Shown one piece after another: positions 11,131-63,559 of a DNA stretch of 64,000 bases. The stretch is taken from the NCBI GenBank assembly GCA_030710605.1, contig CP092863.1:144414478-144478477 (forward strand), written 5' to 3'. The DNA is from Cordylochernes scorpioides. Lineage: Eukaryota > Arthropoda > Arachnida > Pseudoscorpiones > Chernetidae. The position numbers and the translations under genes were made by a program. A model generated the notes under the pieces. That model had not been told where the DNA came from and searched no databases. It was given only the letters and a program-made list of their open reading frames with translations. The stretch's first letter is position 1; every line of letters starts with the position of its first letter.

Positions 11131-11202
11131 AAATATAAACAAGGGACGCCCTTACAGCCTTAGAATAATTTTTAACGCCTTGCCAAATGTTTTAATTTTT
11201 GT

Positions 11203-11248: not shown

Positions 11249-11289
11249 TAAAAAAGATTTACTGGATTAAGTATCTTTATTTTCAAAAA

Positions 11290-14480: not shown

Positions 14481-14559
14481 ATATTTAAAATGAAATAAAA
14501 TTATAAATAATACCTTTATATAACATATATAAATGTTCATTTTGGATCATATATTTTTA

Positions 14560-14770
14560 TTTTCCAATATTTCGTATGTCAACTCGCCAAACTTCTTCGG
14601 GGAACAAGATTGTTTTAAGATGGTCGCGTATCAATTGACGAGTATGTAAAATAAATATATAATTAGCTACTTAAAATAATATTGTTTCCCCGAAAAGGTT
14701 TGGCGAATTGCAATACAAAATATTAATATATTGAAAAATAAAAAAATATATGATCCAAAATAAGCATTTT
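14560..14770. repeat. Foldback repeat related to HH-A
   Basis: ATCATATATTTTTATTTTCC at the left is mirrored by the segment ending ATATATGATCC at the right. Both arms carry CGCCAAAC or GTTTGGCG next to TTCTTCGGGG or CCCCGAAAAG. The arrangement resembles a decayed hammerhead-like core. Confidence 0.6.
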
Positions 14771-16800: not shown

Positions 16801-17185
16801 ATAAATTACATGTAAATGAATATTTCGACAAAAAATAATTATTTTATTCAAAATTCAATGAATATAAATTCCTTATCAATATTTACAACTCCCAAACAGT
16901 ATTTGACTTTATATAAAAAAATAGAATAATTCTATTAACAAAAAGAAAGGTCCAGATAACGACATTCAAATCAACTTAGGAAATCCGATTCAACCAAATC
17001 CACAAAGATCTTATGGAAGAAAGAATGAATACAAAAAAAGAAGAAGGATGAATTGTCACCTAAGGATTCACAGATAGGAAAGCAAAGACCATCAAATCCC
17101 GTGGTATTGTTCCTAAGTTTTATCTTGAGACTGCATTTGTCTTCACTTGGGGGATGTGTGATTGAACCTCTGTAATGATCTTCTA
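16801..17185. other. Spacer with a weak open stretch
   Basis: About 16930-17080 on the plus strand is open and less AT-rich (residues INKKKGPDNDIQINLGNP at its start, ending in a basic KKRRRMNCHLRIHR before TAG). There is no match I can name. It may be a transposon remnant or chance. Confidence 0.25.
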
Positions 17186-17659
17186 GCCATTTCTTTCCTC
17201 AACTTTTCTGTTAACTGCTAACACTTCCTACAAAACTTTATAAACATTTTAATACCTTCAAACTTTATATTCTTTCCCTTCTAGCTTTTTACATAGTAAT
17301 TGAAAAATATAAAAAAAAAGTTAAATTATATTTTTGTGAAATCTGCTAGAATGTACCTTTTTTATATTACTATATTCATTATGGAATTAACAGTTTATTT
17401 TTCTTTATGTGTATTATATTCTCTTTATGCATATAAAAAAGATATTTTAATATAATATTAAAATTGTAATTTAAAAAATGCATTTATATAAATCTTTAAA
17501 TAAAAAGGCATATATTGGATCAAAATATCATTTATTTTACCAATTTACCAAAATATGATTTTTTAATCCAATATTTGCCTTTTTATTTAAAGATTTATTT
17601 ATGTATTGCTCTATTTTCAAAAATATATATATAAATGTGAAATAATATATATATATAAG

Positions 17660-17862
17660 GTCAGGTGTTGATATTAAAAATAAAAATGGCATATCTTGAC
17701 CAAGCTTATATGAGCATTTCTAGATGGCAGAGCGTTATCTAGGGGAACAAAATTCAATAATTGAACAAGTTAAATAAACGCTTAGTTTATTTTTGTTTCA
17801 CTAGATGGCGCTCTGCCATCTAGAAATGCTCATATGAGCTTGAGCAGGATATCCCTTTTTTA
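17660..17862. repeat. HH-C foldback repeat
   Basis: Inverted arms: AGCATTTCTAGATGGCAGAG and CTCTGCCATCTAGAAATGCT. The spacer holds the GTTTAGTTTATTTTTGTTTC-type middle. The same element lies at 23210-23400 in the second direct-repeat copy. Confidence 0.8.
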
Positions 17863-17897
17863 TATTCATAAAAATATATATCAAAATAACCACTTTT

Positions 17898-17924
17898 ATC
17901 GTATCTCGGTCTTTTAGCTAAGAT
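17898..17924 (+). pseudogene. U2 snRNA 5'-end fragment, copy 1
   Basis: Matches the first 27 nucleotides of animal U2 snRNA at 23 positions (compare 23432-23458). It begins at the U2 start ATCG and loses similarity after AAGAT. No Sm site or later stem-loops follow. Confidence 0.5.
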
Positions 17925-18362
17925 ATGAAAATGTAAAATAAACTCTTTTAAAGAATATATTTATCATTTTATATTCAATCAGACAAAACTTAAGGAAGTT
18001 ATACCTTTTAGAATGAAAGACCCAGAAGAAAATAGGCGTACAGTCTAGACTGTTTGCTTATCTTAGTCTGGGTCTTTGTTTATTTTGAATAAAGCGAAAT
18101 ATTGTATTTATGTAATTAATAAAATATTTCAATTTATATTTGATTCAAAATATGCAATTTAATTAAAATTTATATATATATAACAAAAAGATATATATAT
18201 TTATATGAGATACCACGACGAAAATAATCGTAGAGCCTAGCAACATATTAAATTGTGATTTTAATAAAAGGTTTTATCTCTGATTCATAAAATAAACCGC
18301 GTTAGAATAATGTATATATATATATGTTATATGAGAATGTTATTTTATTTAAAATTATATAT

Positions 18363-18665
18363 CATAGATTCAAATACTCTGTTAGATCGACCGCCAGAAT
18401 ACACGCCTTCCCTATAAAAACTCATTGTTGTTGTTTCCCGATGGCCGGCTCAAACCATATGTAATTATGTAAATAAGTTTTTGTTTTCTTTTACTACCCG
18501 CCTTAAAAGTCAAGGTACTCGTATTATTTAATTGTCAATTACGTTATCATATCAATTAAAGTAAATTATGATTTATCCTTCATTTTATTAATATTTTTCA
18601 ACGACTACAAATATATATGAAAAAAACATACTCATGTACCCTTCAACAACTTAAGAAAATATTTG
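18363..18665 (-). repeat. GCCGGC-family repeat
   Basis: Reverse of the 14160 copy: ATCGACCGCCAGAATACACG, GATGGCCGGCTCAAACCATA, CCGCCTTAAAAGTCAAGG. Confidence 0.85.
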
Positions 18666-18734
18666 TATTTATAATATATATATATTAAAAAGAATATAAT
18701 AAATGAAAAAGGTTCAGGTGTTGATATTAAATAT

Positions 18735-19020
18735 AATGAAAGCATATACTGACCAGGAACACATTGTGCTTTTCAGATGGCAGAGCGCCATCTAGTGGAA
18801 CAGAAATCAACTAAACATTGATTTAACCTGTTCCCTGTTATTTGGTCAACCCAATTTCTTGATAAATAAAGAAACTCCATCCAGAAACGCGTTTCGTGTT
18901 GTTGGCGTTCTTCAGCGTGAAGTAGGCTGTACCAATGCGATCAAAAATATTTTTGGTCCCAGTGGCTTCTTTAGAAACCAAGAAATGGGTATTTAAGGTC
19001 AAATTTGCGTAAATACGCTT
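18735..19020 (-). repeat. HH-C repeat with hammerhead-like core
   Basis: Starts CTGACCAGGAACACATTGTG and TGGCAGAGCGCCATCTAGTG. On the minus strand at about 18932-18892 it reads CACG-CTGAAGA-ACGCC and then ACGAAACGCGTTT. Box and GAAA are canonical and stem III is the palindrome ACGCGT, but stem II pairs poorly and stem I is not evident. Confidence 0.6.
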
Positions 19021-19099
19021 AGCACGTGAAAGAACAATATAATAAAAGGTAAAGGGCCAGTAATATATATATGTTATATAAAAATATTATTTTATTTGA

Positions 19100-19295
19100 A
19101 ATCATATTTTCGTAGATTTAAATACTCTGCTAAATTGACCGCCAGAGGTCACGTTTCCCCTATAAAAAATCGTTGTTGTCTTATCCCGTTGGCCGGCTCA
19201 AATCTTTTGTACATTATGTAAATAATATTTTAATTTTTTTATTCTTACGCCTTAAGCCAGGCAGTACTTTTACCAAATTATGTCTTTTATACATT
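19100..19295 (-). repeat. GCCGGC-family repeat
   Basis: TTGACCGCCAGAGGTCACG, GTTGGCCGGCTCAAATCTTT, ACGCCTTAAGCCAGGCAGTA. Confidence 0.85.
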
Positions 19296-19826
19296 CCTTA
19301 GCTTATAATTGAAGAAATCTCTGATCTTCAATATTTTTATTATAGTTTCAAGATTTTAAACACGACTGCATTAACATACCATAATCCTCAAAAAATGATC
19401 AAAAATCAACAGAAATCTTATCATTCTTTATTAAATATAATATATATATATATTGTAATGTAAGGCAATTTTTTTAAGTTAAATATAATAGGAATAAATG
19501 AATATATAAGTAAGAGATCTAAAAATAATTTAAATTGATGAAAGCTGCCTCAATAAGCAGCGAAGTGGCACAGTGAGTTCTCACAGAAAGTGGTGTTAGA
19601 CTTACTGGCTGATGGATATGCAAATATGGGAGACTTGTTTATTCTGTCTTGATTTGCATAAGTTTCCCGTCTTTCAAGTTAGTTATTCTTCAAACTAGGT
19701 GAATCAATAAGTTCAAACACATATGCATATTTTAATAAATGGTTATGACCTATTGAAATATTACCTATTATAGATTTTATTTGATATATATAAATTAGCG
19801 TCATTATAAATACGACTTGACACATA

Positions 19827-19984
19827 CACTCATGGAAAAAAATTAAAGAAGTTGTACCTTTCAGCATGTATATCGGGATTTAGATAATAACTCGGAAAGA
19901 TATTACAGTGACCTTTATTAAAGACACACGAGATAACCAAGTAGGAACAAAATTGCTTCAGAATATCCTCAAAAATATATATAA
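19827..19984. mobile_element. MITE truncated by the LINE junction
   Basis: CACTCATGG and one 123-bp unit are present. The element stops near ATATATAATC, where the LINE tail begins. The continuation is intact in the other direct-repeat copy (25378-25602). Confidence 0.8.
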
Positions 19985-22716
19985 TCTATATATATAAAAA
20001 TGAATGTATGTGTGTGTGTGTGTGACAATTGACAATTAAAAAATATTTATTGTCATCTTAGACAATATTACATATTTTCAATCATAGGGAGAGAAAAAGA
20101 AAATAAGAAGAGAGAAGAGAAGAGAAAATATATACATATATGAAACAAATTTTACAAGATGGTGATGGGAGATGGAGGAAGAAAACCTCGGCGCTGGAGG
20201 GTCCTGGACCAGGCGATGAGCGGGTCTTCCACTGCTTCTCCGAGCCCAACCTGTACAAAGTAGCGATAAATTCGCAACTTTGCCGACGCCAAGATGGAAA
20301 GGGCGTCGTCCTCAAGGCCGGACCCGCCGAAGATCCAAGCCTGCAGGTCAGGGGGCCGCCCTATGATGTTGAAGGCCTCTCTGATGAGAGGCCTGATGGA
20401 ACGGCAGCACCAGTAACGGTGGCCGAGGGAGCGGTCGATGGACCCGCAGGCAGGATAGGAGGGGCCGACCGAGGCAGGATGGGCCGGATGGGGCAGGGCG
20501 TGGAGGGCCAACTTGAGGGCCGCGTCGGCCTCGTGGCCCGAGTAGGCGCAGCGCCGCAGCGAGGCCCAGTCGATCCTAGATGGAAGTGGACCGATGGTGG
20601 GCGACCATCTCGAGGTGAACCTTGAGATGGGCGTGGCGGCGAGGCGCGGGCGATCCAGGGCCCGTCGGGCCGAGCGGGTCGTGAGGCCGATGAGGAACGG
20701 CGTAGCCGTCCCTCGCAGCACCACGGCCGCAGCTAAAGAGCTAGATGAGGGTGCAGACTCCGCCCCGAAGCCCACGGCGTTCTCGGAGGTCAGCCTCCGA
20801 CAGAAGGCGCCCAGGGCCGCGGCGTCAGCCAGGGCCGAGCGCGTAGGTCGGGCGGTGAGGTGGCCCTCCGCAAGAAGGTCCCGGACTCGGGCTCCGCGCC
20901 AGCGGGCAGGGGCCAGGAGGGCGGAGGAACCGGCAGCCGCCGATGATGTTGAGGTCCAGTAGCTGAGCCGTGGGGACCGCCCGATGGTTGAGGCCCAGGA
21001 TGTTGGAGGCCTACTCCCACAGCTTCAGCAGCCGGAGACGGCGGGGCTGGAGACGGGTGCCGTCCGGTGGAGGGTGGATCCAGGCCTCACCGCTTTCTAC
21101 CAGCCAGCTGAAGGCATTTCTGCCTCCGCGGAGCGCGACCTGCACCCCCTTGAGGCAGGCGAGCTGGAGCTGGGTCGCGAGGTCGAGGAGGCCGAGGCCT
21201 CCGATGGCAACTGGCCTCGCCATGACATCGGCGGGAAGCCACGCCGTGTGGTCCTGTCCCCAGACGAATCTCGCCAGTCGGGCCTGCAGCTTGGCGATGG
21301 TTGGGGGTGATGGTAGGTAGCCATGCAGGTGGTGCTGGATGACAGAGCCCACCAGCGTGTTCGCCGCTCTTGCTCGCCCGACGAGGGAGAGGCCGCGGGT
21401 GAAGGGCGTCCATTTGCGGCATGCATTCTCCAGGAGGGCCAGGAGATGCTGCTCCCGGTGGGCGACGGTGCTCCTGGGGGCGATGTCGAGCCCGAGGACC
21501 CTGATGGAGGTGGTCGACCAGGAGGCGCCGAGAGGGGAGTCGCCGCGGTTGCGCCAGGCGCCGCACCAGAGGCCAGCGCTCTTCCGGAGGTTCACGCCAA
21601 CTCCGGAGGCCTGCTTGTATTCTTCGAAGACGGTCGCCACCCGTTCGAAGTCTCCGTCGCGATGAAATAGGAGGACGATGTCGTCGGCGTAAGCGATGAC
21701 ATTGCCCACGCCGAGGGTCAACTCCAGGCGACGTAGCAGCGGCCCCGTGGCGATGCTGAAGAGTGCGGCGCTTACGGCGCAACCCTGCCTGAGGCCGTTG
21801 AGAAGGGGGAAGGCTGTTGTATGAAAGCCTCCGGCCCGGATGGTGGCGTCCGCCCCGGCGTAGAGGATGTTAATCCAGGCCATGAAGGCCGGCGGGAGGC
21901 GGAGGGATGTTAGCAGGGACTCCAGGAAGCCGCGGTCCAATGAGTCAAAGGCGGACTCTAGGTCGACGCCCATGACGGCCAGCGGCGAGCCCAGGGCGGT
22001 GGCCTCCTCGATGGCGTCCGTCACCATGGCGATGTTCCATGACGGGGACCTCCCGGGGACGGCGTAGGTCTGGCATTCCGGCACAAGGGTCCGCAGGTGG
22101 GGCTTGAGGCGCCGGTGAAGGATGGCGGCCAGGACCTTGTAGTCGGCCGAGGGCAGCGCGACAGGCCTGTAGCCATCAAGGCCGCGACCTCCGCGGGCCT
22201 TGGGCACGAGGCAGATGGAGCTGCGCCGCGTCGACGGAGGTAGGGCACCGCGGAGCCGTGAAGCCGCGAACACCCGGGCCAGAGCTTCCGCGAAGAAGTC
22301 CTCGTTGAAGGCGACGAGGAGTTCGCACGGCAAGCCGTCCCAGCCGGGGGCCTTTCCGCGAGGGAGGTGCTCGATGGCGTTGACGATCTCGCTGGGGCTG
22401 ATGTCCGGCCGGTGGAGCGGGTCCTCCTCACTCAGCTCGTGGGTGGTGGTGGGCGCGCTGCTGGCGATGAAGGCAGCTCCCGCAGCTGGATCGCTGGTGG
22501 GACGGGCGAAGCGGGGCTGGAAGGTCGCGAACGCCCTCCGCCGAAGCTCGGGGCCCTCGACGATGTTATCCTGCTCGTCCCTGATGACGCTGACCGGGCG
22601 TCGGAGGCGGATGGCGCGTGCTAGGTCCGGCAGCGATGGGTAGTCGGCCCGGATGGAGGAGGCCTCGAGCTGCGCCGCGATATAGCGCCTTGCCCTGTAG
22701 ATGTAGCTGTCGCTGG
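19985..22716 (-). mobile_element. Tx1/L1-type non-LTR retrotransposon, 5'-truncated
   Basis: Reverse orientation: a 3' tail rich in CA repeats and AT (19985-20035), a 3' untranslated part, then a reverse transcriptase reading frame up to 22716. There it stops abruptly against the second 2.8-kb direct repeat. The endonuclease half is missing, as in typical 5' truncation. From about 20150 to 22716 it is strikingly GC-rich compared with AT-rich flanks. Confidence 0.9.
20152..22716 (-). pseudogene. Reverse transcriptase ORF2 of the Tx1/L1-type LINE (broken)
   Basis: Copies its own RNA into DNA at a nick in the chromosome (target-primed reverse transcription). The frame is open from the truncation at 22716 to a TAG at 21011. 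In order: KAPGWDGLPCELL, YRPVALPSADYKVLAAIL, GVDLESAFDSLDRGFL, NGLRQGCAVSAALF and the catalytic AYADDIVLL (about 21690). A thumb and L1-type C-terminal region follow (LVGRARAANTLVGSVIQH, LPADVMARPVAIGGLGLL). After the in-frame TAG the reading continues (SNILGLNHRAVPTAQLL), then shifts frame between about 20780 and 20930. The last part (GSIDRSLGHRYWCC, RPPDLQAWIFG) ends at TAA 20152. The RNA-binding first ORF and endonuclease are absent. Dead by truncation, stop and frameshift. Confidence 0.88.
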
Positions 22717-23084
22717 CAATGATCTTTTAGCCATTTCTTTCCTCAACTTTTCTGTTAACTGCTAACACTTCCTACAAAACCCTATAAACATTTTACTATC
22801 TCAAACTTTAAATTCTTTCCCTTCTAGCTTTTTTCCATAGTAATTGAAAAATATAAAAAAAAGTTAAATTATCTTTTTTTTATCTGTTAGAATGTACCTT
22901 TTTTATATTACTATATTCATTATGGAATTAACAGTTTATTTTTCTTTATGTGTATTATACTCTCTTTATGCATATAAGAAAGATGTTTTTGATATAATAT
23001 TAAAATTGTGGTTTAATTATATACATTTATTTTTAAAATAGAGCAATCCATAAATAAATCTTTAAATAAACAGGCATATATTGG

Positions 23085-23155
23085 ATCAAAATATCATTTA
23101 TTTTACCAATATTTCAGTTGGCTGAACGCCAACCTTTCAAGGTATTATAACATAT
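23085..23155 (-). repeat. HH-A repeat, single arm
   Basis: GGCATATATTGGATCAAAAT, GTTGGCTGAACGCCAACC, AAGGTATTATAACA. Copy 1 of the direct repeat has a different, foldback-like version at 17500-17600. Confidence 0.7.
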
Positions 23156-23209
23156 AAAAATAAATTTCATATAAATGTGAAAAACAATTAAAAATATAAA
23201 AAAGCAGGT

Positions 23210-23400
23210 GTTGATATTAAAAATGGGATATCCTGACCAAGCTCAAATGAGCATTTCTAGGCAGAGCGCCATCTAGTGGAACAAAATTCAATAATTGAAC
23301 AAGTTAAATAAACGTTTAGTTTATTTTTGTTTCAATAGATGGCGCTCTGCCATCTAGAAATGCTCATATGAGCTTGAGCAGGATATGCTTTTTTATATTC
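23210..23400. repeat. HH-C foldback repeat
   Basis: Counterpart of 17660-17862. Inverted arms with GAGCATTTCTAG and CTAGAAATGCTC. Confidence 0.8.
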
Positions 23401-23431
23401 ATATAAATATATGATAAAAATTGCCACTTTT

Positions 23432-23458
23432 ATCGCTTCTCGGCCTTTTATCTAAGAT
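23432..23458 (+). pseudogene. U2 snRNA 5'-end fragment, copy 2
   Basis: ATCGCTTCTCGGCCTTTT followed by ATCTAAGAT: 25 of 27 positions agree with the conserved 5' end of U2 snRNA, in which GGCTAAGAT follows. Combining both copies restores 26 of 27. Similarity stops after this point, so only the 5' stem I region is present. Confidence 0.6.
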
Positions 23459-23897
23459 ATCAAAATGCAGAATAAACTCTTTTAAAGAATATACTAATCA
23501 TTTTATATATAATCGTGACAAAACTTGAGGAAGTTATTCCTTTTAGAATGAAAGATCCAGACGAAAATAGGGTTACAGTCTAGACGGTATGCATATCTTA
23601 GTCTTGGTATTTGCTTATTTTGAATAAAGCGAAATATTATTTTTATGTAATTAATAAAATATTTCAATTTATATTTGATTCAAAATATGCAATTTAATTA
23701 AAATTTATATATATATAACAAAAAGATATATATATTTATATGAGATACCACGACGAAAATAATCGTAGAGCCTAGCAACATATTAAATTGTGATTTTAAT
23801 AAAAGGTTTTATCTCTGATTCATAAAATAAACCGCGTTAGAATAATGTATATATATATATGTTATATGAGAATGTTATTTTATTTAAAATTATATAT

Positions 23898-24195
23898 CAT
23901 AGATTCAAATACTCTGTTAGATCGACCGCCAGAATACACGCCTTCCCTATAAAAACTCATTGTTGTTGTTTCCCGATGGCCGGCTCAAACCATATGTAAT
24001 TATGTAAATAAGTTTTTGTTTTCTTTTACTACCCGCCTTAAAAGTCAAGGTACTCGTATTATTTAATTGTCAATTACGTTATCATATCAATTAAAGTAAA
24101 TTATGATTTATCCTTCATTTTATTAATATTTTTCAACGACTACAAATATATATGAAAAAACATACTCATGTACCCTTCAACAACTTAAGAAAATC
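23898..24195 (-). repeat. GCCGGC-family repeat
   Basis: Counterpart of 18363-18665 in the direct repeat. Confidence 0.85.
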
Positions 24196-24279
24196 TTTGT
24201 ATTTATAATATATATATATATTAAAAATAATATAATAAATGAAAAAGGTTCAGGTGTTGATATTAAATATAATGAAAGT

Positions 24280-24560
24280 ATATCCTGACCAGGAACACAG
24301 GTGCTTTTCAGATGGCAGAGTGCCATCTAGTGGAACAGAATTTATCAACTAAACATTGATATAATCTGTTCCCTGATATTTGTCAACCCAATTTCTTGAT
24401 AAATAAAGAAAATCCATCCAGAAACGCGTTTCGTTTTGTTGGCGCTCTTCAGCGTGAAGTAGGCTGTACCAATGCGATCAAAAATATTTTTTGGTCCCAG
24501 AGGCTTCTTGAGAAACCAAGAAATGGGTATTTAAGGTCAAATTTGCGTAAATACGCTTAG
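24280..24560 (-). repeat. HH-C repeat with hammerhead-like core
   Basis: Counterpart of 18735-19020. On the minus strand near 24452-24430: CTGAAGA-GCGCC, then ACGAAACGCGTTT. Confidence 0.6.
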
Positions 24561-24639
24561 CATGTGAAAGAACAATAGAATAAAAGGTAAAGGGCCAGTA
24601 ATATATATATGTTATATAAAAATATTATTTTATTTTAAA

Positions 24640-24825
24640 TCATATTTTCGTAGATTCAAATACTCTGCTAAATTGACCGCCAGAGGTCACGTTTCCCCTA
24701 TAAAAAATCGTTGTTGTCTTATCCCGTTGGCCGGCTCAAATCTTTTGTACATTATGTAAATAATATTTCAATTTTTTTATTCTTACGCCTTAAGCCAGGC
24801 AGTACTTTTACCAAATTATGTATTT
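24640..24825 (-). repeat. GCCGGC-family repeat
   Basis: Counterpart of 19100-19295 in the direct repeat. Confidence 0.85.
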
Positions 24826-24969
24826 TATACATTCCTTAGCTTAATTGAAGAAACCTCTGATCTTCAATATTTTTATTATAGTTTCAAGATTTTAAACACG
24901 ACTGCATTAACATACCATAATCCTCAAAAAATGATCAAAAATCAACAGAAATCTTATCATTCTTTATTA

Positions 24970-24971
<2 letters not shown>

Positions 24972-25006
<35 letters not shown>
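24972..25006. repeat. AT dinucleotide microsatellite
   Basis: Longer here than in the matching position of copy 1 (about 19438-19452). Confidence 0.85.
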
Positions 25007-25008
<2 letters not shown>

Positions 25009-25377
25009 AATATAAGGCAATTTTTTAAAGTTAAATATAATAGGAATAAATGAATATATAAGCATGAGATCTAAAAATAATTTAAATTGAAAGCTGCCTC
25101 AATAAACAGCGAGGATGCACAGCCAGTTCTCACAGAAGGTGGTGTTAGACTTACTGGCTGGATGGATATGCAAATATGGGAGACTTGTTTATTCTGTCTT
25201 GATTTGCATAAGTTTCCCGTCTTTCAAGTTAGTTATTCTTCAAACTTGGTGAATCATTAACTTCAAACACATATGCATATTTTACTAAATGGTTATGACC
25301 TATTGAAATATTACCTATTATAGATTTTATTTGATTATATATAAATTAGCGTCATTATAAATACGACTTGACACATA

Positions 25378-25602
25378 CACTCATGGAAAAAACTTAAAGA
25401 AGTTGTACCTTTCAGCATGTATATCGGGATTTAGATAATAACTCTGGAAGATATTTCAGTGACCTTTATTAAAGACACACGAGATAACCAAGTATGAACA
25501 AAATTGCTTCAGAGTATCCAAAAAATATATATAATAATAAATAAATAGACGACCAGCTATATCAAAGACTTTCCACTTCTTTAAAGGTTTTCCATAGGTC
25601 TA
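25378..25602. mobile_element. MITE, complete copy
   Basis: Left CACTCATGGAAAAAACTTAA, one 123-bp unit, then GACGACCAGCTATATCAAAG and the decayed right end TTTTCCATAGGTCTA. It spans the right limit of the 2.8-kb direct repeat. Confidence 0.8.
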
Positions 25603-28010: not shown

Positions 28011-28089
28011 ACAACGACAAAAATCTTTATTAAGATAAATATGAAGATGTAGTACAAATGTGATATTGTACTGAGATAAGGTTCATAAA

Positions 28090-28310
28090 TAAAAAAAGGC
28101 ATCTCCTTATCGTGCAACTGAAAGTTGCTGATGGCTTGAGCCATCTATCGGAATAAATATCAACTATTCATTGATTTTTAATTATTCCAGAATTAGCCAA
28201 ATATCTAAGCTTGATTAATCATTAATATTTATTCCGATAGATGGCGCAAGACATCAGAAACTTTCAGTTACACGATTAGAAGATACCTTTTTTTCTTTTT
28301 CAAAGATAAA
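28090..28310. repeat. HH-B foldback
   Basis: Left GGCATCTCCTTATCGTGCAA and GAGCCATCTATCGGAATAAA; right ATTTATTCCGATAGATGGCG and a TACACGATTAGAAGATACC end, forming inverted arms. Confidence 0.75.
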
Positions 28311-28319
28311 TATGCATTC

Positions 28320-30605: not shown

Positions 30606-30641
30606 CAAACACACAAAAAAATTCTAAACGTAATATATATA

Positions 30642-31189
30642 TGTAGTAAACCCGATGTGGAATGTACTGGGCAGTCGTGGTCGTGGGTGTGTGATGGGAT
30701 TCCCGCACTGGGACAGCAAGAGACAGAGGCAGGTCTAGATGGTAACTCCAAGAAGGTAGAGGTAGACCACGGACGAAGGCAGTCGAACCACGGGCGTCAC
30801 GGATGCCTACATCGCGGATAGGGGTGAGAGACCCGACCGTATGACGGCGTCGCTCTGAAAACAACTAACTGAACAACTAACCTTGTCCTATTTCTGGGCT
30901 CTTTAATATGAGACGCCCGCATATGTTGGCGAGTTCTGATTGGCTCCCATAATCACGCCACATGTCAGGCGCCGGGTTGTTTATCATGTCTGGCCACCTG
31001 TTGACGGGGTGATTGAACTCATTATCATAAACACCTGTTCGTCTGGTATTTGTCTCCGTCTAGACTACCTTTACCTCTTTGTTTATTTGTCACTTTGTTA
31101 CAAGGTCGATGCATATTTTTATATAGAGATGGGGTTATAATAAATATCAGAAGAAGGTTGTGAACTATCTTAACTCAAAATATACTACA
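30642..31189 (+). mobile_element. Solo LTR, copy 1 (548 bp)
   Basis: Begins TGTAGTA and ends TACTACA, with short inverted ends and TG...CA as in LTRs. AATAAA (about 31138) lies near the 3' end. No primer-binding site or coding region follows. AT microsatellites at both edges hide any target duplication. Confidence 0.75.
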
Positions 31190-31685
31190 TATATATATAT
31201 ATTTGCATTTTATATTATATAAAACATATATGGCAACAAATAAAATTATATTAATTAGCATCCATCATTCAAATTGATATTTCGAATAAATATAAAGGTG
31301 TACTTAATTATAACTTGTGCTATTAAAGAATAAACAGTTTATAATTATAAATATAAATTAAGTATATGTTGATATAAATCATGCATTTAATATAAAATAT
31401 GTCGAATACATAAATATTAATGGTTTAATTAATCAAATATATGAAGCATATATATCTAAAATAAATATTTCTGGATATATATTCTGTGTCTAAACGTTTA
31501 AAATATATGCAGTTTATTAATGTTTTTAAAGTGAATATTTTACATTCCTCCAAATATTTATCTTTTTGAATGTAGTCAATTTCAAATCTATAGGTATATA
31601 TATATTTATGGTGTGTTTAAATTATAAGATAATTTTTAAATGTCCAGTAAATATATGAATAGTTTTATGAATAGCTAATAAAATA
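31190..31685. other. AT-rich spacer
   Basis: Nothing recognised; no gag or pol sequence after the LTR. Confidence 0.5.
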
Positions 31686-32144
31686 AACTCATGGACAAAA
31701 CTTAAGGAAGTTGTACCTTCCAGCATGTATATCGGGATTGTGACAATAACTCTGAAAGATATTACAGTGACCTTTATTGAAGACACACGAGATAACCAAG
31801 TGTGTATACACTCATGGACAAAACTTAAGGAAGTTGTACCTTTTAGCATGTATATCGGGAGAGATTGAGACAATAACTCTTAAAGATTTTAAAGTGAAAA
31901 AACCTTATTGAAGACAAACGAGATAACAAAGCGTGTATACACTCATGGACAAAACTTAAGGAAGTTGTACCTTTTAGCATGTATATCGGGATTCAGACAA
32001 TCCCTCTGAAAGATTTTAAATTGACCTTTATTGAAGACACACGAGATAACCAAGTGTGAACAAAACTTCTATCTCCTTGAAAAATATAGGCAACTGGCGA
32101 CACACATCAAAGACTTCTACTTCCTTAGATTTTGTCCATAAGTG
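31686..32144. mobile_element. MITE with three 123-bp units
   Basis: Units at 31686, 31809 and 31940. The right end closes TTTTGTCCATAAGTG. Confidence 0.88.
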
Positions 32145-34295: not shown

Positions 34296-34751
34296 TTATC
34301 CTATATAGGCTAGGTTGTTCTTACTGAGCGGTACCTAATAAAGTAATAGAAATAAATAAACACGTCACTTTGAACTTTGGTCTCTTCCAACAATGATGTC
34401 CTGCGATTCCATCTAGTGTAAAGTAACTTCGAACTGAACTTAACTGGTAAGATATTGAGAGAGAGAGATAATTTCTAAATTATGCAAATCAATATTACAT
34501 ATTGCAATATACAATTTTAACCATATATAAGTTTGTTATTTAAGTTTAAATATTTGAAGGATCGCTAAAAAAGAGAGAATATAGTAGAAGAGGTTTAAAA
34601 ATAACCTTAATAATGTTTTTTAATTCAAATATTTTCTATAAACATATCGTAATTTGAAGATAATCGCCTACTGCAATAATTTATCAAAATAATATAATCA
34701 TGAGATTAATAGTTTATTGTAAGGTTTTTTAAATATATATATATATATATA
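34296..34751. other. Spacer with a short dispersed motif
   Basis: 34306-34340 (TAGGTTGTTCTTACTGAGCG, GTACCTA) recurs at 43787-43822. The rest is AT-rich, ending in an AT microsatellite. Confidence 0.5.
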
Positions 34752-35297
34752 TGTAGTAATCCCGATGTGGAATGTACTGGGCAGTCGTGGTAGTGGGTGC
34801 GTGATGGGATTCCCGCACTGGGACAGCAAGAGACAGAGGCAGGTCTAGATGGTAACTCCAAGAAGGTAGAGGTAGACCACGGACGAAGACAGTCGGACCA
34901 CGGGCGTCACGGATGCCCTACATCGCGGATAGGGGTGAGAAACCCGACCGTATAACAGCGTCGCTCTGAAAAACAACTAAACCACTAACCTTGTCCCATT
35001 TCTGGGCTCTTTTATATTGGCTGCCCGCATATGGCGGAGAGCCCTGATTGGTTCCTGTAAAATCACGCCACCTGTCAGGCGCCGGGTTATTTATCACGTC
35101 TGGCCACCTGTTGACGGGGTGATTGAACTCATTATCATAAACACCTGTTCGTCTGGGTTATTGCGTCGTCTGGTCTACCTTTACCTCTTTGTTTATTTGT
35201 CACTTTGTTACAAGGTCGATACATATTTTTATATAGATATGGGGTTATGATAAATATTAGAGAAGGTTGTGATCTATCTAGTTCAAAATATACTACA
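34752..35297 (+). mobile_element. Solo LTR, copy 2 (546 bp)
   Basis: Collinear with copy 1 with scattered substitutions (for example GTAGTAAT for GTAGTAAA at the start). Same TGTAGTA and TACTACA ends. Not paired with copy 1 as one element, since the 3.56 kb between them is unrelated repeats. Confidence 0.75.
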
Positions 35298-35302
35298 TAT
35301 AT

Positions 35303-35724
35303 GGAAGCAATGGTCGCCTCTCCCGTCAAAATAAACGTCAGAATCTGACGCCATCTATTGACCGTCGCCGCAACTAGCGGCATCGGGTCGGTGACAAAGC
35401 CACAACACCAACTTTGGCAAACCAATAAGCGTCCACCTAGAGATTTGCCAATAGATTTGGCCCAACCACATTGCCATCAAAACACCTCTTTGGTAGATTG
35501 TGAGGATTCCATTAGATCCCGTGTGGATCTTATGGAATAAAGTCCGCCCTAGACTGACGAGGGCCATTAGCCCGAAACCATGGTCTCTAGGTGGACGCTT
35601 ATCAGTTTGCCAAAGTTGGTGTTGTGGCTTTGTCACCGACCCGATGCCGCTAGTTGCGGCGACGGTCAATAGATGGCGTCAGATTCTGACATTTATTTTG
35701 ACGGGAGAGGCGACCATTGCTTCC
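35303..35724. repeat. HH-D foldback element, ~142-bp arms
   Basis: Arms 35303-35444 and 35584-35724 are near-perfect inverted copies (GGAAGCAATGGTCGCCTCTC against its complement). The 139-bp loop ends in the hammerhead described next; the right arm starts inside the ribozyme. The element begins five bases after the solo LTR ends. Confidence 0.92.
35542..35596 (+). ncRNA. Type I hammerhead ribozyme, canonical core (HH-D)
   Basis: Self-cleaving RNA motif. Box CTGACGA 35554-35560 fits CUGANGA. Stem II is GGGC/GCCC (35561-35564 with 35570-35573) closing loop CATTA. GAA is 35574-35576. Stem III is the palindrome ACCATGGT (35577-35584), which suits a two-molecule hammerhead. Nucleotide 17 is C35585, predicted cleavage after it. 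Stem I has an inner helix of six pairs (35548-35553 with 35586-35591), an internal loop, and an outer helix of four pairs (35542-35545 with 35593-35596). All catalytic core positions are intact. Known relatives of this shape occur in Penelope-like elements and animal retrozymes. Confidence 0.8.
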
Positions 35725-35774
35725 GTGGATTAATTTCCTCCCGGCAAATTTTCCATCTATATATATATGTATAT

Positions 35775-35845
35775 ACGAGCTTTCGAGCATTTCTTTCCTT
35801 CAACAAGAATAATAATAAAGAGATAATAGTCGAAAGCTCGGATAT
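35775..35845 (-). repeat. HH-F hammerhead-like repeat
   Basis: CGAGCTTTCGAGCATTTC, then CTTCAAC; a second GTCGAAAGCTCGG follows, mirroring it. Weak core. Confidence 0.4.
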
Positions 35846-36601
35846 ATATTTTAAAAACCTTACAAGTAACTCTTCATTTCATTATTGTCATTTTTATAAT
35901 AAAATTATATATTTATTGGGTTTATAATCATTTGAAAATATATTTTGAAATAATATTATATTAATAATTATTAAGGTATAAATATATAAAAAAAATATAT
36001 ATGTATACATTTATAATCAATCTAAACCACATAGTTGTCAATAGTAATTCCTTTTAGTATTTTAAAATCTCATTCTATAATATAATCGAGATTGATTTTT
36101 TTGTGACTTTTATATATATATCAAAATTGGAAGCTATTATAGACGAGTATGATTCTTTTTATAAATAAACAATTTCTACTGTCCTTACTGCAATGGAAAG
36201 TTTAATGGGATTTATATATATATTTATATATATAAATTTAATTATAAAAGATTTATAATCTAAATTACATTAAGGTTATCTTATTCACTCCGAAATATTT
36301 TATTAAATCTTTTTATAAATAGAATATTTTTCATGCATCTAGCAAAAGAAATGCCTATATAGAATTTAAAACTAAATATTATTATTTCACAAAGAGAGAG
36401 AAAAATAACAGACGAACCTTTCAAAGTTAATTTCGCTAAATAAACATTTGTGTTAAATATTCAGGGGTTTTATTATCTTCCCAGAATGGTTTACAATAAT
36501 ACCAAAATAAGTGATACTTTTGATTTTTTATATTGAACGATAAGATTAAATTTTAGCACTAGATACATTTTCATATAATGTTCATTCGAAAATTATGTTT
36601 G

Positions 36602-40848: not shown

Positions 40849-41538
40849 TATGTAACAAATATATTATGTCTTCAAAATGAAAATAAATTTCATAATAACG
40901 TATGAGGGTATCTACAATATTTATTAACATTTAAAAGCATACGATAATTTACCTTTATTTTAAGCCAGACTATGTTAGAATTTAAAACATGGATTAAGGT
41001 ACATTCCACATCTCCTATCAGAAATAACTTGCTAAAATAAAATATGATTTCTTACTCGATAATTCGAAAAATTCGAAAAAAAAAATCAATCCCAAACGAT
41101 TCAACTATTTTCTACATTCTGGAAACAAAGATGTTTATTCCTTGAGGCAATTTCTTTTTTTCAATTTTCTAACCTATCTCCTGAAGCTATTTTATATATG
41201 TGTAGTTACAGAATCTTTCTATTTCTATTCAATATATATATAACATGGTGTGCCGTGTTATATTTTGAGCATGCTCAAATATTCTTTTAGGATTATGTTC
41301 CAAAATTCTTATTTGCATATTCAATTCTCAATCGTGCGGAAAGATTTTTGTTTGTTTTTCTTTTTTATTTATATATACTGACTTCGTGTTTTAAAATAAT
41401 AATAAAATTGGAATATTTTATTTTTATTAAGGTAGTGTGGGATATATATTGTTCGAAAAGAATGTAATAATTGAGTACAATCATAAATATGTGAAAATAG
41501 TACAAATGTGATATTGTACTGGGATAAGGTTCATAAAT
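40849..41538. other. AT-rich spacer
   Basis: 41495-41535 (AAATGTGATATTGTACTGGG, ATAAGG) precedes HH-B copies also at 28050 and 52080, so it is part of the HH-B flank. Confidence 0.5.
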
Positions 41539-41773
41539 TAAGAAAAAGGCATCTCCTTATCGTGTAACTGAAAGTTGCTGATGGCTTGCGCCATCTATCG
41601 GAATAAATATCAACTATTCTCCGTAGTTAGCTTTTATTGATTAATCAAAAATGGGTATTTGGCCAATCCTGGAATAATTGAAAAATCAACGAGAATAGTT
41701 GATATTTATTCCGATAGATGGGGCAAGCCATCAGTAACTTTCAGTTGCATAATAAGGAGATGCCTTTTTCTTA
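41539..41773. repeat. HH-B foldback
   Basis: Arms 41539-41620 and 41692-41773 (AAGGCATCTCCTTATCGTGT, GCGCCATCTATCGGAATAAA against complements). The middle has TTGGCCAATCCTGGAATAAT. Confidence 0.88.
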
Positions 41774-41849
41774 ATCATAAGTATGTAAAAATATACATCA
41801 TATATCAACCATTCATAATATTAGGAAAATATATAGCCACATCAAACAA

Positions 41850-45639: not shown

Positions 45640-45850
45640 ATAGTTTCACGCAATATCATTTATTTTATCAACATTTCAGTTGGCTGATCGCCAACCTTTT
45701 TCAAGGTATTATAACATATTAATGTTAACATATTAACACATTAAAATGTTATAATACCTTGATGAAGGTTGGCGTTCAGCCAACTGAAATATTGGTAAAA
45801 TAATGATATTTTGATCCAATATATGTCTTTTTAATTAAATATATATAAAA
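45640..45850. repeat. HH-A foldback
   Basis: Left arm CAGTTGGCTGATCGCCAACC to TATTATAACATATT; right arm is the reverse, ending AAATATTGGTAAAATAATGA and GATCCAATATATGTC. Both arms carry the ribozyme-like core. Confidence 0.85.
45752..45800 (+). ncRNA. Hammerhead-like ribozyme (HH-A)
   Basis: Box TTGATGA 45759-45765 (C3 changed to T), one extra A, stem II GGTTGGC/GCCAACT with loop GTTCA, GAA 45786-45788, palindrome ATAT 45789-45792. Stem I GGTA (45794-45797) pairs with TACC (45755-45758). Least altered HH-A box in the window. Confidence 0.45.
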
Positions 45851-46369: not shown

Positions 46370-46477
46370 TTAACGAAATCGCTGTAAGTGTTCACCATTG
46401 ATGAGCCATACTCTTCCACTTTCAATTTTTATTTATTACAATTTAATGGCTATAGAAATAAATCATAATTGCATATA
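46370..46477 (-). repeat. FB-1 fragment, decayed
   Basis: ACGAAATCGCTGTAAGTGTT, CACCATTGATGAGCCATACT. Confidence 0.5.
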
Positions 46478-46762
46478 CACTCATAGACAAAACTTAAGGA
46501 GGTTGTACCTTTTAGCATGTTTATCAGGGTTCATAAAATAACTCTGAAAGATATTACAATGACCTTTATTGAAGACATACGAGATAACCAAGTGTGTATA
46601 CACTCATGGACAAAACTTAAGGAAGTTGTACCTTTTAGCATGTATATCGGGATTCAGACAATAATTCTGAAAGATATTACAGTGACCTTTATTGAAAGCA
46701 CACGAGATAACCAATATACACTCATTGACAAAACTTAAGAAAGTTTTACCTTTTAATATGTA
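46478..46762. mobile_element. MITE with two to three 123-bp units, right end lost
   Basis: Units at 46478, 46601 and 46719; the last is truncated near 46762. Confidence 0.82.
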
Positions 46763-46789: not shown

Positions 46790-47190
46790 AATGCATTAGC
46801 GCGCCATCTGTTATGAAAATTCGAAACTATTTTAGACGCCTATGAATTTAAAAAAAAAAAATAAAACAATTTATAATAAAGAAAATAAATTTTCCTGGAT
46901 TGAAATTAGACGAAAAACATGGTAAAGGAAGACGAGTTTTTTTTTTATGAATAGGTGCAAGCTTTCGGGTAAAACCCCTTCAACAGGCGAGCGCGACTTG
47001 TAAGAACTATGGTACAAATGGTAGGAAGGAATATACAAAAATATTACAATTCGCGCTCGCCTGTTGAAGGGGTTTTACCCGAAAGCTTGCACCTATTCAT
47101 CAATAAAAGAAACTCGTCTTCCTTTACCATGTTTTTCGTCTAAAAACAATTTATATTGTCCTTACTGCAATGAAAAAATAAAAATATATT
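46790..47190. repeat. FB-1 arm split by an HH-F insertion
   Basis: FB-1 left part: ATGCATTAGCGCGCCATCTG to AAAACAATTTATA (46875). It resumes at AAAACAATTTATA (47143) with TTGTCCTTACTGCAATG. The 13-bp repeat on both sides marks the insertion between. Confidence 0.85.
46876..47142. mobile_element. HH-F foldback inserted with a 13-bp target duplication
   Basis: 267 bp between two copies of AAAACAATTTATA (46863-46875 and 47143-47155). Inverted arms 46908-47000 and 47047-47141 (AGACGAAAAACATGGTAAAG and complement). Each arm has the box-stem-GAAA order, for example CTGTTGA (47061-47067), GGG/CCC, GAA (47081-47083), palindromic AGCT. A6 is changed to T and stem I is weak. No coding capacity. Confidence 0.85.
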
Positions 47191-50510: not shown

Positions 50511-50597
50511 TGATTAATATATCTAGTGATATCTATATATCGTTGAAAATTATACATATACTTTTAACGCTACTTTTAGACACACATATATATATAT

Positions 50598-50866
50598 ATT
50601 AGATAATAAAAAGGCATATATTGGATTTAATAAAATATTTATTTTGCCAATATTTCGGCTGGCTGAACGCCAACCTTTATCGAGGCATTACATTTTTGTA
50701 TACACAAACTCAGCGCCGCATAGTGTTCTTATAGTGAACACTATGCGGCGCTGAGTTTGTGTATACAAAAATGTAATGCCTCGATAAAGGTTGGCGTTCA
50801 GCCAGCCGAAATATTGGCAAAATAAATATTTTATTAAATCCAATATATGCCTTTTTATTATCTAAT
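50598..50866. repeat. HH-A perfect foldback, 131-bp arms
   Basis: Arms 50598-50728 and 50736-50866 around a 7-bp loop, centre 50732. The arms contain GAACACTATGCGGC at the tip, GTTTGTGTATACAAAAATGT, then the core. Near-perfect pairing indicates a young copy or gene conversion between arms. Confidence 0.95.
50777..50819 (+). ncRNA. Hammerhead-like ribozyme (HH-A, right arm)
   Basis: Stem I TGCC (50777-50780) pairs with GGCA (50816-50819). Box region TCGATAA, stem II GGTTGGC/GCCAGCC with loop GTTCA, GAA 50808-50810, palindrome ATAT 50811-50814. Compared with 45752-45800, both sides of a stem I pair changed together (T-A to C-G). The box is altered, so cleavage is doubtful. Confidence 0.4.
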
Positions 50867-50919
50867 GAATTAAATATGGATTGCTCTATTTTCAAATATA
50901 TATATATATTTATATTATA

Positions 50920-51490: not shown

Positions 51491-52084
51491 CATTTGATCC
51501 CTGTAAAATTTGCATTTTGTACTATCCTTCATATAATATATTGGTTAACAAACATAAAGGATGAACAGTATGCAAATATCTAAATAAAATATTAATACAA
51601 AATTGTCAAATATTAATAGACTTGTTCAAGTTGCCTCTAATTTGAAAAACACACACGAAATAACACATTTTAAGAGTTTAAATAGAAAATTGAAATATAA
51701 TTGGAAGACGTTTATTAACCCCCAAGAATTCTTCGTTAATTATTATAATTATCAATAGGTTTCTTGTCAAAGTAGGGTTAAGGTATCTACAGATGCAAAT
51801 AGGAATAATTAACAACAATTAGACGAATTAGGTAAATTTCTATTGTGAGAATCGCCTGAGGGCAAACCTTACTAAACTCTCAACTTCTCTCCCTTTCTCT
51901 CATTTTTGGTGATAAAATCATTCATTTATAAATCTAATAATCAATTAGATTTTGATATCTCTAGTATATAATCATTCTCATGTTTTTAATTTTAATATAT
52001 TTTGGTATCCAACAAGACATTTTTGACAATTCAATATATTTTATTGAAACTTCTTAGATAATGTGAAAAAAATAGTACTAATGT
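51491..52084. other. AT-rich spacer
   Basis: Nothing recognised. Confidence 0.5.
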
Positions 52085-52275
52085 GATATTGTACTGGGAT
52101 AAGGTGCATATATTATATAAAAAAGGCATCTCCTTATCGTGCAACTGATATTTTGGCCTATTCAGGAATAATTAAATATCAATAAGAATAGTTAATATTT
52201 ATTCCGATAGATGGCGCAAGCCATCAGTAACTTCCAGTTGCACAATAAGGAGATGTCTTTTTTTATAATCTTAGA
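52085..52275. repeat. HH-B foldback, internally deleted
   Basis: AAGGCATCTCCTTATCGTGC at the left, GATAGATGGCGCAAGCCATC and CACAATAAGGAGATGTCTTT at the right. The ribozyme-like middle is missing. Confidence 0.75.
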
Positions 52276-53054
52276 TAATTGTTATGAAAATCAAAGAGAA
52301 ATTAAACAAAGTTGAATGTGATTATTTACAATTTGATGATAAAAATATAAAAAATGTTCTACTAGAATATTACCCAATTGCAAGAAAATACTGGAGGTTA
52401 TATCTATACTGAGCAATATACCTTTATGACAGAATGAATTTCGAATTTATAATATTGTCGCTTTATAAAAATAGTTGTCAGGAAAGATAAAAGTAGAAAT
52501 CAACTATATTCTTCGATGATAACAGTCTTTTACTAAAATAAAAAATAACTGAATTTATATAGAAATCACAAACCATATATGCAAATAAAACTTAGAATAT
52601 GTAACTTAAAATTATGTAAATTAACATACACATAAATACACACACAAATAAATCACTTTACAGTATATATATAATATATATAGAATTAAAATAGACAAGA
52701 TTTTTAAGATGGAATTTTATTTTATTGCAAAACAGATTAAAATTTATGAAGTACCATATAGGAAATAAAATGAAGTTCTACAATATAGCAAAATATGAAT
52801 TTGTGTCTGTGTCAATATTAAATATTATTTATGAAAAATGTTTAACTAAAATATAATTATAGTCTTTATTGCATACTCATCTTGGAGGTGATGATTATTT
52901 ACAGATTTGCTTGTTTTAAAATATAGAGCAATCCAAAAATATATCTTAAATTAAAAAGGCATATTACGCTATTATAAATCATATGTCCATAGTTCATCTA
53001 AAATTGTATTCCAAGAGTCTAGAATAAGTATCACTATAAATATAAAACCGAAAA
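52276..53054. other. AT-rich spacer
   Basis: Nothing recognised. Confidence 0.5.
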
Positions 53055-53180: not shown

Positions 53181-53437
53181 AAAAATATTTTGAGTTTTTG
53201 TATAAATATATATAAATTGAAAAATTAATATGTCTTTTAAAATTTATAAAATGAACAATTAGTAGATTATTTTCATTCTGATATATGGCAAATATCATTT
53301 TGAAAATTTCTTCGAGCAATTAGAACATTCTATTTCTCGTTCTTGATATTTCCATTGGATTTATTATATACTGACATAGTCATATTAAATCTATTTTTTA
53401 TTAAATATTTTTAAAGTCGAATCTCTAGATGTATATA
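53181..53437. other. AT-rich spacer
   Basis: No feature. Confidence 0.45.
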
Positions 53438-54856
53438 CACTGCGTGACATTGAAAATGGAACACCAAGAAATAGTGGCCAGAAAATTATGCAAATTTCAG
53501 GGTAGACGCGCCTAACCGAGTTATGCAAATGATGTAAAATGCGCAGCTCTCGTGCGCACATGGAGTAAGATATAAGGGAAGGAACTTGCAGAAAGGACAG
53601 TATTCGTGTCGTTATTTCTTCAAGGAAAATCATTGTAGAAATTTTGTTCTTGTGTCAAAAGACACGTGTAATAACAAAGAATACCAGGTCATCGTAAACG
53701 GAGGCAGTTCAAGCAGACAGACGCTTTTACGAGGGGCATGGTGATCGGACTGAAAAGGGCAGGTTGGTCCATACGTCAAATCGCAGCTGATACACTCCTT
53801 GGTGCGTTCACAGTGCACCGACTGTGGAGAAGATGGTTGGAACAAGGAAATGTGGCAATTTATAGGAATGTCGGTGCAACCAGAGTGACGTCAGCACGTG
53901 TAGATCGGCGTATCCTTCGACAAGCAGTGGCGGCCCCACAAGCCACTTGTACCGCCATCCTGCAACATGTGCAAAACACCCTAGATCATTCCATCTCGAC
54001 CAGAACCATTTCCCGTCGATTGGTTGCTAATGGCTTGCACTCATGCCGTCCGCTAAGAAGACTGCCACTGACCCCACCGAATAGGCGCCAACGTTTAGAA
54101 TGGTGCCGGGCTAGATCGACGTGGATGACGGAATGGCACAGGGTCGTGTTCTCAGATGAGTCGCGTTTCTGCTTGTCCAGTGATAGTCGCCGTGTACGCG
54201 TGTGGCGTCGACGTGGAGAAAGGTCCAATCCGGCAGCAATTGTGGAACGCCCCACCGTGCGACAACGTGGAATCATGGTTTGGGGCGCAATCGCGTATGA
54301 TTCCAGGTCACCTTTACTTCGTATTCAGGGCACTATGACGGCCCAAGGTTACGTTGATGATGTGCTGCGACCGGTGACACCCACCTACCTTCAGGGGGTA
54401 CCCAATGCCCTTTATCAGCAGGATAACGCCCGACCGCACACTGCTCGCATTAGCCAACAAGCTCTGCAAGATGTACAGATGCTTCCCTGGCCACCGTACT
54501 CTCCTGATCTCTCACCAATCGAGCACGTCTGGGACATCATTGGACGCCGTTTGCATGCCTTGCCACAGCCGCGTTCAGAAGACGAACTGTGGCAAATGGT
54601 TGAGAGGGAATGGAGAGCCATCCCTCAGGACGCCATCAGTACTCTGATTGACTCTCTACCTAGACGTGTTGCTGCGTGCATCGCCGTCCGCGGTGGTCCT
54701 ACTTGCTACTAAGCCGACGCCGTTCTCGCTCTGTATTATGACTATCATTTTGAAATAAAGATCACTTATTGTTCGTCCCTGTCTCTCTCTGTCTGCCGAG
54801 TTTCATCACTTTCTGGCCACTATTTCTTGGTGTTCCATTTTCAATGTCACGCAGTG
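53438..54856 (+). mobile_element. Tc1-like DNA transposon, copy B (complete)
   Basis: 1419 bp flanked by TA (53436-53437 and 54857-54858). The 47-bp terminal inverted repeats (53438-53484 and 54810-54856) are perfect, starting CACTGCGTGACATTGAAAAT. AATAAA lies at about 54755, after the transposase. Structure is complete, but the transposase start codon is mutated. Confidence 0.96.
53681..54712 (+). CDS. Tc1-like transposase; original start codon lost (ATA)
   Basis: Cuts and pastes the element at TA sites. The frame is open from the position matching copy A's ATG, here ATA (53681-53683), to the stop; full length would be 343 residues, the usual Tc1 size. The first ATG now is 53738, leaving 324 residues and removing 19 N-terminal ones beside the DNA-binding region. 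Numbering from 53738: helix-turn-helix GWSIRQIAADT (residues 9-19), catalytic D140 (VVFSDESRF), D229 (YQQDNARPH) and E262 (DLSPIEHVW). Only 32 residues separate the last two, against 34 in classical Tc1. The rest looks intact; the shortened protein may be inactive. Confidence 0.93.
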   Translation: MPGHRKRRQFKQTDAFTRGMVIGLKRAGWSIRQIAADTLLGAFTVHRLWRRWLEQGNVAIYRNVGATRVTSARVDRRILRQAVAAPQATCTAILQHVQNTLDHSISTRTISRRLVANGLHSCRPLRRLPLTPPNRRQRLEWCRARSTWMTEWHRVVFSDESRFCLSSDSRRVRVWRRRGERSNPAAIVERPTVRQRGIMVWGAIAYDSRSPLLRIQGTMTAQGYVDDVLRPVTPTYLQGVPNALYQQDNARPHTARISQQALQDVQMLPWPPYSPDLSPIEHVWDIIGRRLHALPQPRSEDELWQMVEREWRAIPQDAISTLIDSLPRRVAACIAVRGGPTCY

Positions 54857-56550: not shown

Positions 56551-56571
56551 AGTCAATAGTATGAAGTCAAA

Positions 56572-63550: not shown

Positions 63551-63559
63551 GGAAATAAA

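Follow-up and report, generated by a model that had tools for sequence, protein, structure and literature searches.

Hammerhead ribozymes in the pseudo-LTRs (pLTRs) of Penelope-like elements were reportedly described by Cervera and de la Pena in 2014 and by Lunse et al. in 2017. According to portions of two papers on these elements (PMC3846280, PMC11167929), the pLTRs are inverted, mostly head to head, with an optional tail of ~30-40 bp, and take in the start of the ORF; targets are AT-rich, and insertion extends both target strands, with reverse transcription starting at two adjacent internal sites. In passages of PMC7761336, the hammerheads that occur in Penelope pLTRs are type I, minimal in form and possibly active as dimers. 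Mutants of the ribozyme left in vitro insertion unaltered in an anole element reconstituted in 2024, and reads beginning or ending at the ribozyme cut were not found (PMC11167929). Type I hammerheads also occur in metazoan retrozymes, presented in sections of PMC7229834 as repeats of 150-450 bp with <50% GC, whose ribozymes combine a weak stem III with a stem I that is extended and has an internal loop.

Here we describe a hammerhead motif in the genome of the pseudoscorpion Cordylochernes scorpioides, within a 64-kb stretch of DNA that was analysed as a whole (the window). Like the Penelope pLTR hammerheads, it is type I, has a very short stem III, is predicted to fold better as a dimer and lies within inverted arms of which one bears a tail; it differs in that its stem I is extended and interrupted by an internal loop, and in that no Penelope ORF was seen here. 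That extended stem I, set beside the minimal Penelope forms in the passages of PMC7761336, counts against placing the motif in a pLTR, and the anole findings count against the integration scheme set out below. The ribozyme adds a new example to a known ribozyme type in a known sort of setting, and the position at which one arm of its inverted repeat begins is a useful lead on what such ribozymes do.

A type I hammerhead with a very short stem III

The motif and the strand that forms its stem III are as follows.

35542 to 35596, plus strand: type I hammerhead ribozyme with predicted cleavage after C35585 (direct reading and geometric scans).
35577 to 35584, plus strand: palindromic stem III strand ACCAUGGU, which gives 3 bp and a 2-nt loop alone and 8 bp between two RNAs.

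The plus strand reads, in order, GTCC-GC-CCTAGA, CTGACGA, GGGC-CATTA-GCCC, GAA, ACC-AT-GGT, C35585 and TCTAGG-T-GGAC. The core elements CUGANGA, GAA and UH are present together with stems I, II and III, and the structure is open at stem I, as a type I hammerhead should be. Direct reading agreed with the sequence-only reading on the catalytic positions, on stem II (GGGC/GCCC) and on C35585 as the cleavage nucleotide, as well as on a stem I built from an inner helix of 6 bp and an outer one of 4 bp around an internal loop, GC/T. Together with loop CATTA, this internal loop is a candidate for the contact between loop I and loop II.

A geometric scan that tolerated no more than a single mismatch in the core (stem II of at least 4 bp, stem III of at least 3, stem I of at least 4, restricted loop sizes) found 35542-35596 as the sole site in the 64-kb window. 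With zero core mismatches and a stem II minimum of 3 bp, the same site was again alone within the window, and this strict scan found 0 loci on both strands of 300 dinucleotide shuffles. The scan and the shuffles bear out the claim that the motif is undamaged.

The covariance-model search that had been proposed as a check gave a different picture, as nothing scored above threshold, which is literally the outcome that the sequence-only reading had said would refute it. At the gathering score, Rfam returned no hammerhead match in the whole 64-kb window, and at E<=10 no hammerhead in the 601 nt around the motif, where the lone row was an unrelated family, caiA. The best score came from RAGATH-1-hammerhead (RF03152) against 91 nt, at 12.5 bits (E 6.1) with a threshold of 56.3 bits, so the motif is filed under no Rfam family. 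In this alignment the catalytic core is in register, and what is missing at 35542-35596 is the 14-nt stretch of the model that covers stem III. We tentatively read this as a model unsuited to forms with a short stem III, rather than as absence of the ribozyme.

From its sequence, 35542-35596 is an intact, real-looking type I hammerhead that is predicted to cleave itself. Of the earlier description as canonical type I, the type holds; the word canonical needs tempering, given a stem III of 3 bp with a 2-nt loop, an Rfam score below threshold and a predicted preference for folding as a dimer.

Predicted folding depends on where transcription starts

The best fold of the 55-nt monomer is not the hammerhead: the GAC of the core pairs with the GUC at the cut, at -22.2 kcal/mol. 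Constrained to the hammerhead, the 55-mer lies 4.9 kcal/mol above this optimum, in a program that cannot form the 2-nt stem III loop. For two strands, the optimum is a double hammerhead joined by the palindrome, which pairs over 8 bp as stem III, at -51.6 kcal/mol (uncorrected for concentration) vs 2 x -22.2 kcal/mol. The outer stem I is shifted in this optimum, and the exact register comes to -46.8 kcal/mol.

In longer transcripts, the outcome depends on the inverted left arm of the foldback, where 35431-35441 is perfectly complementary to the 3' strand of stem I. Transcripts that start at 35444 or 35500 keep the ribozyme, with mean pair probabilities of 0.98-1.0 for outer stem I and stem II and 0.68-0.69 for inner stem I. 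In transcripts that start at 35420, 35400 or 35303, the pair probability of stem I falls to 0. As stem I is lost when the inner left arm is present, that arm is predicted to act as an integral switch that turns the ribozyme off in read-through RNA, and on these models the foldback ribozyme would need transcription to begin between the arms in order to cut. The suggested self-cleavage of plus-strand transcripts therefore becomes conditional in these models, holding for starts at 35444 and 35500 and failing for the three starts further upstream. RNA begun between the arms would let the ribozyme fold alone or, better, as a stem III dimer, with cleavage after C35585. Read-through RNA would instead have the 3' strand of stem I captured by the left arm, which would leave the ribozyme off.

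A foldback with Penelope-like anatomy

The sequence-only reading had placed the ribozyme inside a foldback repeat, and the repeat is real. Its arms, 35303-35443 and 35584-35724, align over 141 nt with 3 mismatches (98% identity). We call the whole locus, 35303-35757, F1. Its parts and its neighbour are listed here.

35444 to 35724, plus strand: plus arm, a pseudo-LTR-like unit of 98 nt upstream of the ribozyme, the ribozyme itself and 128 nt downstream (repeat and nhmmer comparison).
35303 to 35443, minus strand: minus arm, inverted and tailless, with its 5' end at most 2 nt from the predicted cut (3/141 mismatches).
35725 to 35757, plus strand: 33-nt tail on the plus arm only, with its end defined as the start of (TA)n (own sequence and arm comparison).
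35673 to 35757, plus strand: reading frame from an ATG (MASDSDIYFDGRGDHCFRG...), open through the arm end and the tail (translation).
34752 to 35297, plus strand: LTR-like repeat (TGTAGTA...TACTACA) that abuts the foldback on the left, within (TA)n (self-comparison).

The pseudo-LTR-like unit is about 280 nt long with a GC content of 49.5%. The LTR-like neighbour is repeated elsewhere, with 34743-35302 matching 30633-31194 at 91%. Setting this neighbour aside, (TA)n flanks F1 on both sides, which fits an AT-rich target and also hides the exact target duplication. Separately, on either side of the foldback and the LTR-like repeat beside it, 34676-34740 and 35842-35908 form an inverted match at 81%, so the foldback may sit inside an older palindrome.

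The anatomy of F1 can be set beside that of published Penelope-like elements. Head-to-head inverted arms with a tail of 30-40 bp at one end are seen in F1 and also in a second family of foldbacks described below. For an ORF start in the pLTR and tail, there is a candidate: the frame from ATG 35673, in the F1 copy alone, reads MASDSDIYFDGRGDHCFRGLISSRQIFH across the arm end and the tail. This ATG is 88 nt downstream of the predicted cut. The anole element has the two the other way round, with its cut 26 bp downstream of the start codon (PMC11167929). As to target duplications, F1 lies in (TA)n and the second family offers four candidates, one of them weak. Passages of PMC3846280 describe a Penelope of Adineta vaga with the same head-to-head inverted pLTRs, an optional 31-bp tail at one end, the first ORF codons in the pLTR, short target duplications and microhomology at junctions; F1 differs in being an inverted pair only, with no ORF, and the paper does not use the word hammerhead.

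As this anatomy matches that of published Penelope-like elements, we read F1 as a solo pLTR pair, a setting absent from the sequence-only reading: 35303-35757 is probably a solo insertion of two head-to-head Penelope-like pLTRs in (TA)n, with the hammerhead as the ribozyme of the pLTR. No Penelope protein, which would be a telomerase-like RT with a GIY-YIG endonuclease, was seen in the window, so membership is judged from structure, and Penelope-derived is the strongest wording that the sequence can defend. A regular expression for GIY-YIG-like patterns matched none of the six-frame stop-to-stop pieces of the window, and Pfam searches of 10 ORFs in the window returned RVT_1, DDE_3 and HTH/transposase domains, some below curated cut-offs, and zero of Penelope type. 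Two YADD matches look LINE-like by eye, and of these only the ORF at 21011-22333 was shown to match RVT_1. With no GIY-YIG match and LINE-like YADD matches, an autonomous element is not shown in the window.

Family-1 relatives and covariation in stem I

The unit in F1 belongs to a family (family 1), of which nhmmer found further members within the window. Besides weaker matches, there are three.

56568 to 56753, plus strand: relative with a damaged core (CTGACAA) and no inverted arm found; motif at 56572.
59689 to 59864, plus strand: relative with a degenerate hammerhead; motif at 59772.
60031 to 60299, minus strand: relative with a degenerate hammerhead, tail to tail with the previous copy; motif at 60218 (nhmmer bounds 60299-60126).

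All three keep the hammerhead layout and each has damage, which in 59772+ and 60218- consists of core changes or broken stem pairs. Two degenerate relatives had been reported from the letters alone; the shared layout stands, and the number rises to three (56572+, 59772+ and 60218-).

Across the four copies, the 17 pairs of the hammerhead structure make up 68 cells, 82.4% of which can pair, vs 28-41% in six controls with slid partners. Changes on both sides of a pair occur at 4/17 pairs, all of them in stem I and including G-C to U-A and G-C to A-U; stems II and III have zero such changes among the 4 sequences. In 500 shuffles, the number of paired cells was equalled in 1 and the covariation score in 8, while the count of pairs changed on both sides was reached in 131 and that of further pair types in 166. 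With only four sequences and some measures ordinary, the covariation is support for the structure, not proof.

A second foldback family with hammerhead relics

Relics of hammerheads also occur in family 2 (27830-27560 on the minus strand, and others). Judged by eye from its copies A, B and F, the hammerhead of this family appears to have been ACCACG CTGATGA GGGC CAACA GCCC GAA ACGCGT C/CGTGGT, and in the relics the stem III palindrome is ACGCGT without a loop. Four head-to-head foldbacks of this family were aligned.

41479 to 41784, plus strand: foldback C, with a tailless plus arm from 41620, 2 nt before the predicted cut.
28032 to 28314, plus strand: foldback D, with a one-arm tail and a 12-nt candidate target duplication.
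8587 to 8772, plus strand: foldback E, with a one-arm tail and a candidate target duplication of 15 nt with 1 mismatch.
52052 to 52279, plus strand: foldback H, with a one-arm tail and an 11-nt candidate target duplication.

In 4/4, one arm is extended by roughly 40-50 nt and the other is not. Arm ends were placed by aligning chosen segments and then by local alignment to two reference copies, as the nhmmer bounds for family 2 can cross palindrome centres. The tailless arm of foldback C starts at ...ATTCTC/CGTAGTTAGC, at -2 from the cut against both reference copies; the tailless arms of the other three start after the cut, at +80/+81 in D, +64/+75 in E and +36 in H.

Matches between a foldback's own flanks score 9, 12, 12 and 11 for C, D, E and H, while 12 swapped pairs score 6-9. 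Among 1000 random pairs, 7 equal or exceed the score in each of D, E and H and 44 do so in C, whose score was 11 before the window was shortened and 9 afterwards; since 44/1000 random pairs reach 9, the target duplication of foldback C is weak alone.

Arm ends at the predicted cut

The right arm of F1 starts at 35584, two bases ahead of the predicted cut. Read in its own sense, the left arm begins TC|TCTAGG, where | is the cut, so the arm end is the cut plus at most 2 nt, which are possibly microhomology. With F1 and the four family-2 foldbacks taken together, 2/5 tailless arms (F1 and foldback C) begin within 2 nt of the predicted cut, both of them 2 nt before it. For a foldback subset that was chosen after looking, the binomial probability is 0.003 for the tailless arms (a 5-nt target in 270 nt) and 0.014 for both arms of the same five foldbacks (2/10). 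Adding five foldbacks inspected by eye, at about 3423-3591, 11011-11297, 45652-45810, 50585-50878 and 63278-63551, none of which has a junction at the predicted cut, gives 2/~20 arms, or about 0.05 by hand calculation. The window has 19 self-inverted palindromes at E<=1e-6, and the inspection of arm ends gave no predicted cut to 46906-47143 and part of 14531-14769.

A minus arm that starts near the cut is a hint, from sequence, that RNA cut by the ribozyme was once copied back into DNA. We tentatively propose, as a possibility that falls short of an even chance, that in Penelope-like integration one of the two RNA templates owes its 5' end to the hammerhead, with tailless arms derived from cut RNA and tailed arms from RNA that was uncut or truncated. 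For F1 itself, the probable course within the pLTR reading is that both target strands primed reverse transcription of element RNA, one priming at the tail site and the other at the end of the pLTR. The template RNA for the tailless arm would have had the hammerhead cut as its 5' end, the two cDNAs would be joined head to head, and the extra 2 nt would be microhomology or untemplated bases. No report of an arm junction at a hammerhead cut was seen in the literature searched; as the main papers on hammerheads in Penelope fell outside its scope, we make no claim that such a junction is unpublished.

The arm end near the cut could be a coincidence. The ribozyme may be a decayed relic that does not cleave in life, its intact core a chance survival, and we consider this somewhat unlikely. 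In its favour are the broken cores or stems of the relatives, a monomer predicted to prefer another fold and a left arm predicted to outcompete stem I; by hand calculation, moreover, chance would place 2/~20 arms near a cut about 5% of the time. Against it, the arms of F1 differ at only 3/141 positions, so the event that made the foldback is recent relative to family 1; stem I changes are compensated between copies; and the coincidence at the arm end recurs in a second family with the same 2-nt offset.

Other origins for the repeat

The main alternative to a Penelope-like pLTR pair is a metazoan non-LTR retrozyme, a non-autonomous type I hammerhead repeat that spreads through small circular RNA, captured here in inverted orientation. 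The extended, internally looped stem I and the weak stem III are of retrozyme form, and a unit of about 280 nt lies within the 150-450 nt given in sections of PMC7229834, with a GC content of 49.5%, just under the 50% limit stated there. Retrozyme copies would be expected in direct tandem, whereas in the window none are, and every nhmmer match with E of 1 or less is a solo or inverted copy; further, the one-sided tail and the continuing ORF are Penelope traits. We therefore rejected a retrozyme as first choice, and regard it as improbable.

Another candidate is a DNA transposon of foldback or MITE type, with a hammerhead relic that lies in its terminal inverted repeats by chance. This would fit the 141-nt arms at 98% and the 19 self-inverted palindromes, but is very improbable and was rejected, as the window copies do not share the same inverted termini: the relative at 56568-56753 has no inverted arm among the matches, the 59689/60299 pair is tail to tail, the tail is one-sided and the inner ends vary among the four family-2 foldbacks.

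Other features of the window

Further hammerhead relics, mostly of family 2, lie at 27776(-), 28854(-), 10796(+), 63132(-), 1598-1412(-), 18915(-) and 24452(-). A relaxed scan with 0-1 core mismatches returned 19 rows, some of which repeat one site and many of which look like AT-rich chance, vs 3 in a reversed-sequence control; with two core mismatches there was no excess (120 vs 118). A looser hammerhead pattern returned 23 rows, which correspond to 4 places. A third kind of foldback, seen by eye at 45652-45810, 50585-50878 and 63278-63551, reads TTGATAA/TCGATAA...GCCAACT GAAATATT. Its 50585 copy has GCC/GGC where the others have ACC/GGT, possibly a covarying stem I in a hammerhead with U3-A8 replacing C3-G8. 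Another inverted arrangement, at 3508(+), 11100(-) and 11209(+), carries the hammerhead-like CTGAAGA...GAAACGTC.

A tandem satellite of ~123 bp occurs on both strands in at least 6 blocks, and some of its frames are open for >100 codons. Among the matches listed are these blocks.

6261 to 7856: satellite block.
11948 to 12318: satellite block.
31683 to 32058: satellite block.
46474 to 46762: satellite block.
56948 to 57430: satellite block.
58828 to 59192: satellite block.

A GC-rich island at 20000-22726 (64% in 20001-22000 vs near 30% in most of the window) carries an RVT_1 reverse transcriptase on the minus strand and is flanked by a 2.8-kb direct duplication, 17174-19985 and 22718-25535, at 92% identity. 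Two inverted Tc1/mariner-type copies with DDE_3 and HTH_Tnp_Tc3_2 domains, 98% alike, lie at 1-1344, where the copy reaches the edge of the window, and at 53433-54778. No tRNA was found in the window. Exact short patterns gave no match in viral, bacterial and archaeal contigs, a null that, given these collections, says little about the spread of the motif.

Implications

In the folding models, the locus has a self-silencing layout, with an inverted arm complementary to stem I of its own ribozyme. If tailless arms do derive from cut RNA, past hammerhead cleavage in vivo would be preserved in genomes, fossil-like, where the two inverted pLTRs meet. Further, if inner junctions cluster at predicted cuts, genome assemblies would be enough to demonstrate a use of cleaved RNA in integration. 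An arm end at the predicted cut in two families, with the same 2-nt offset, bears on the role of these ribozymes.
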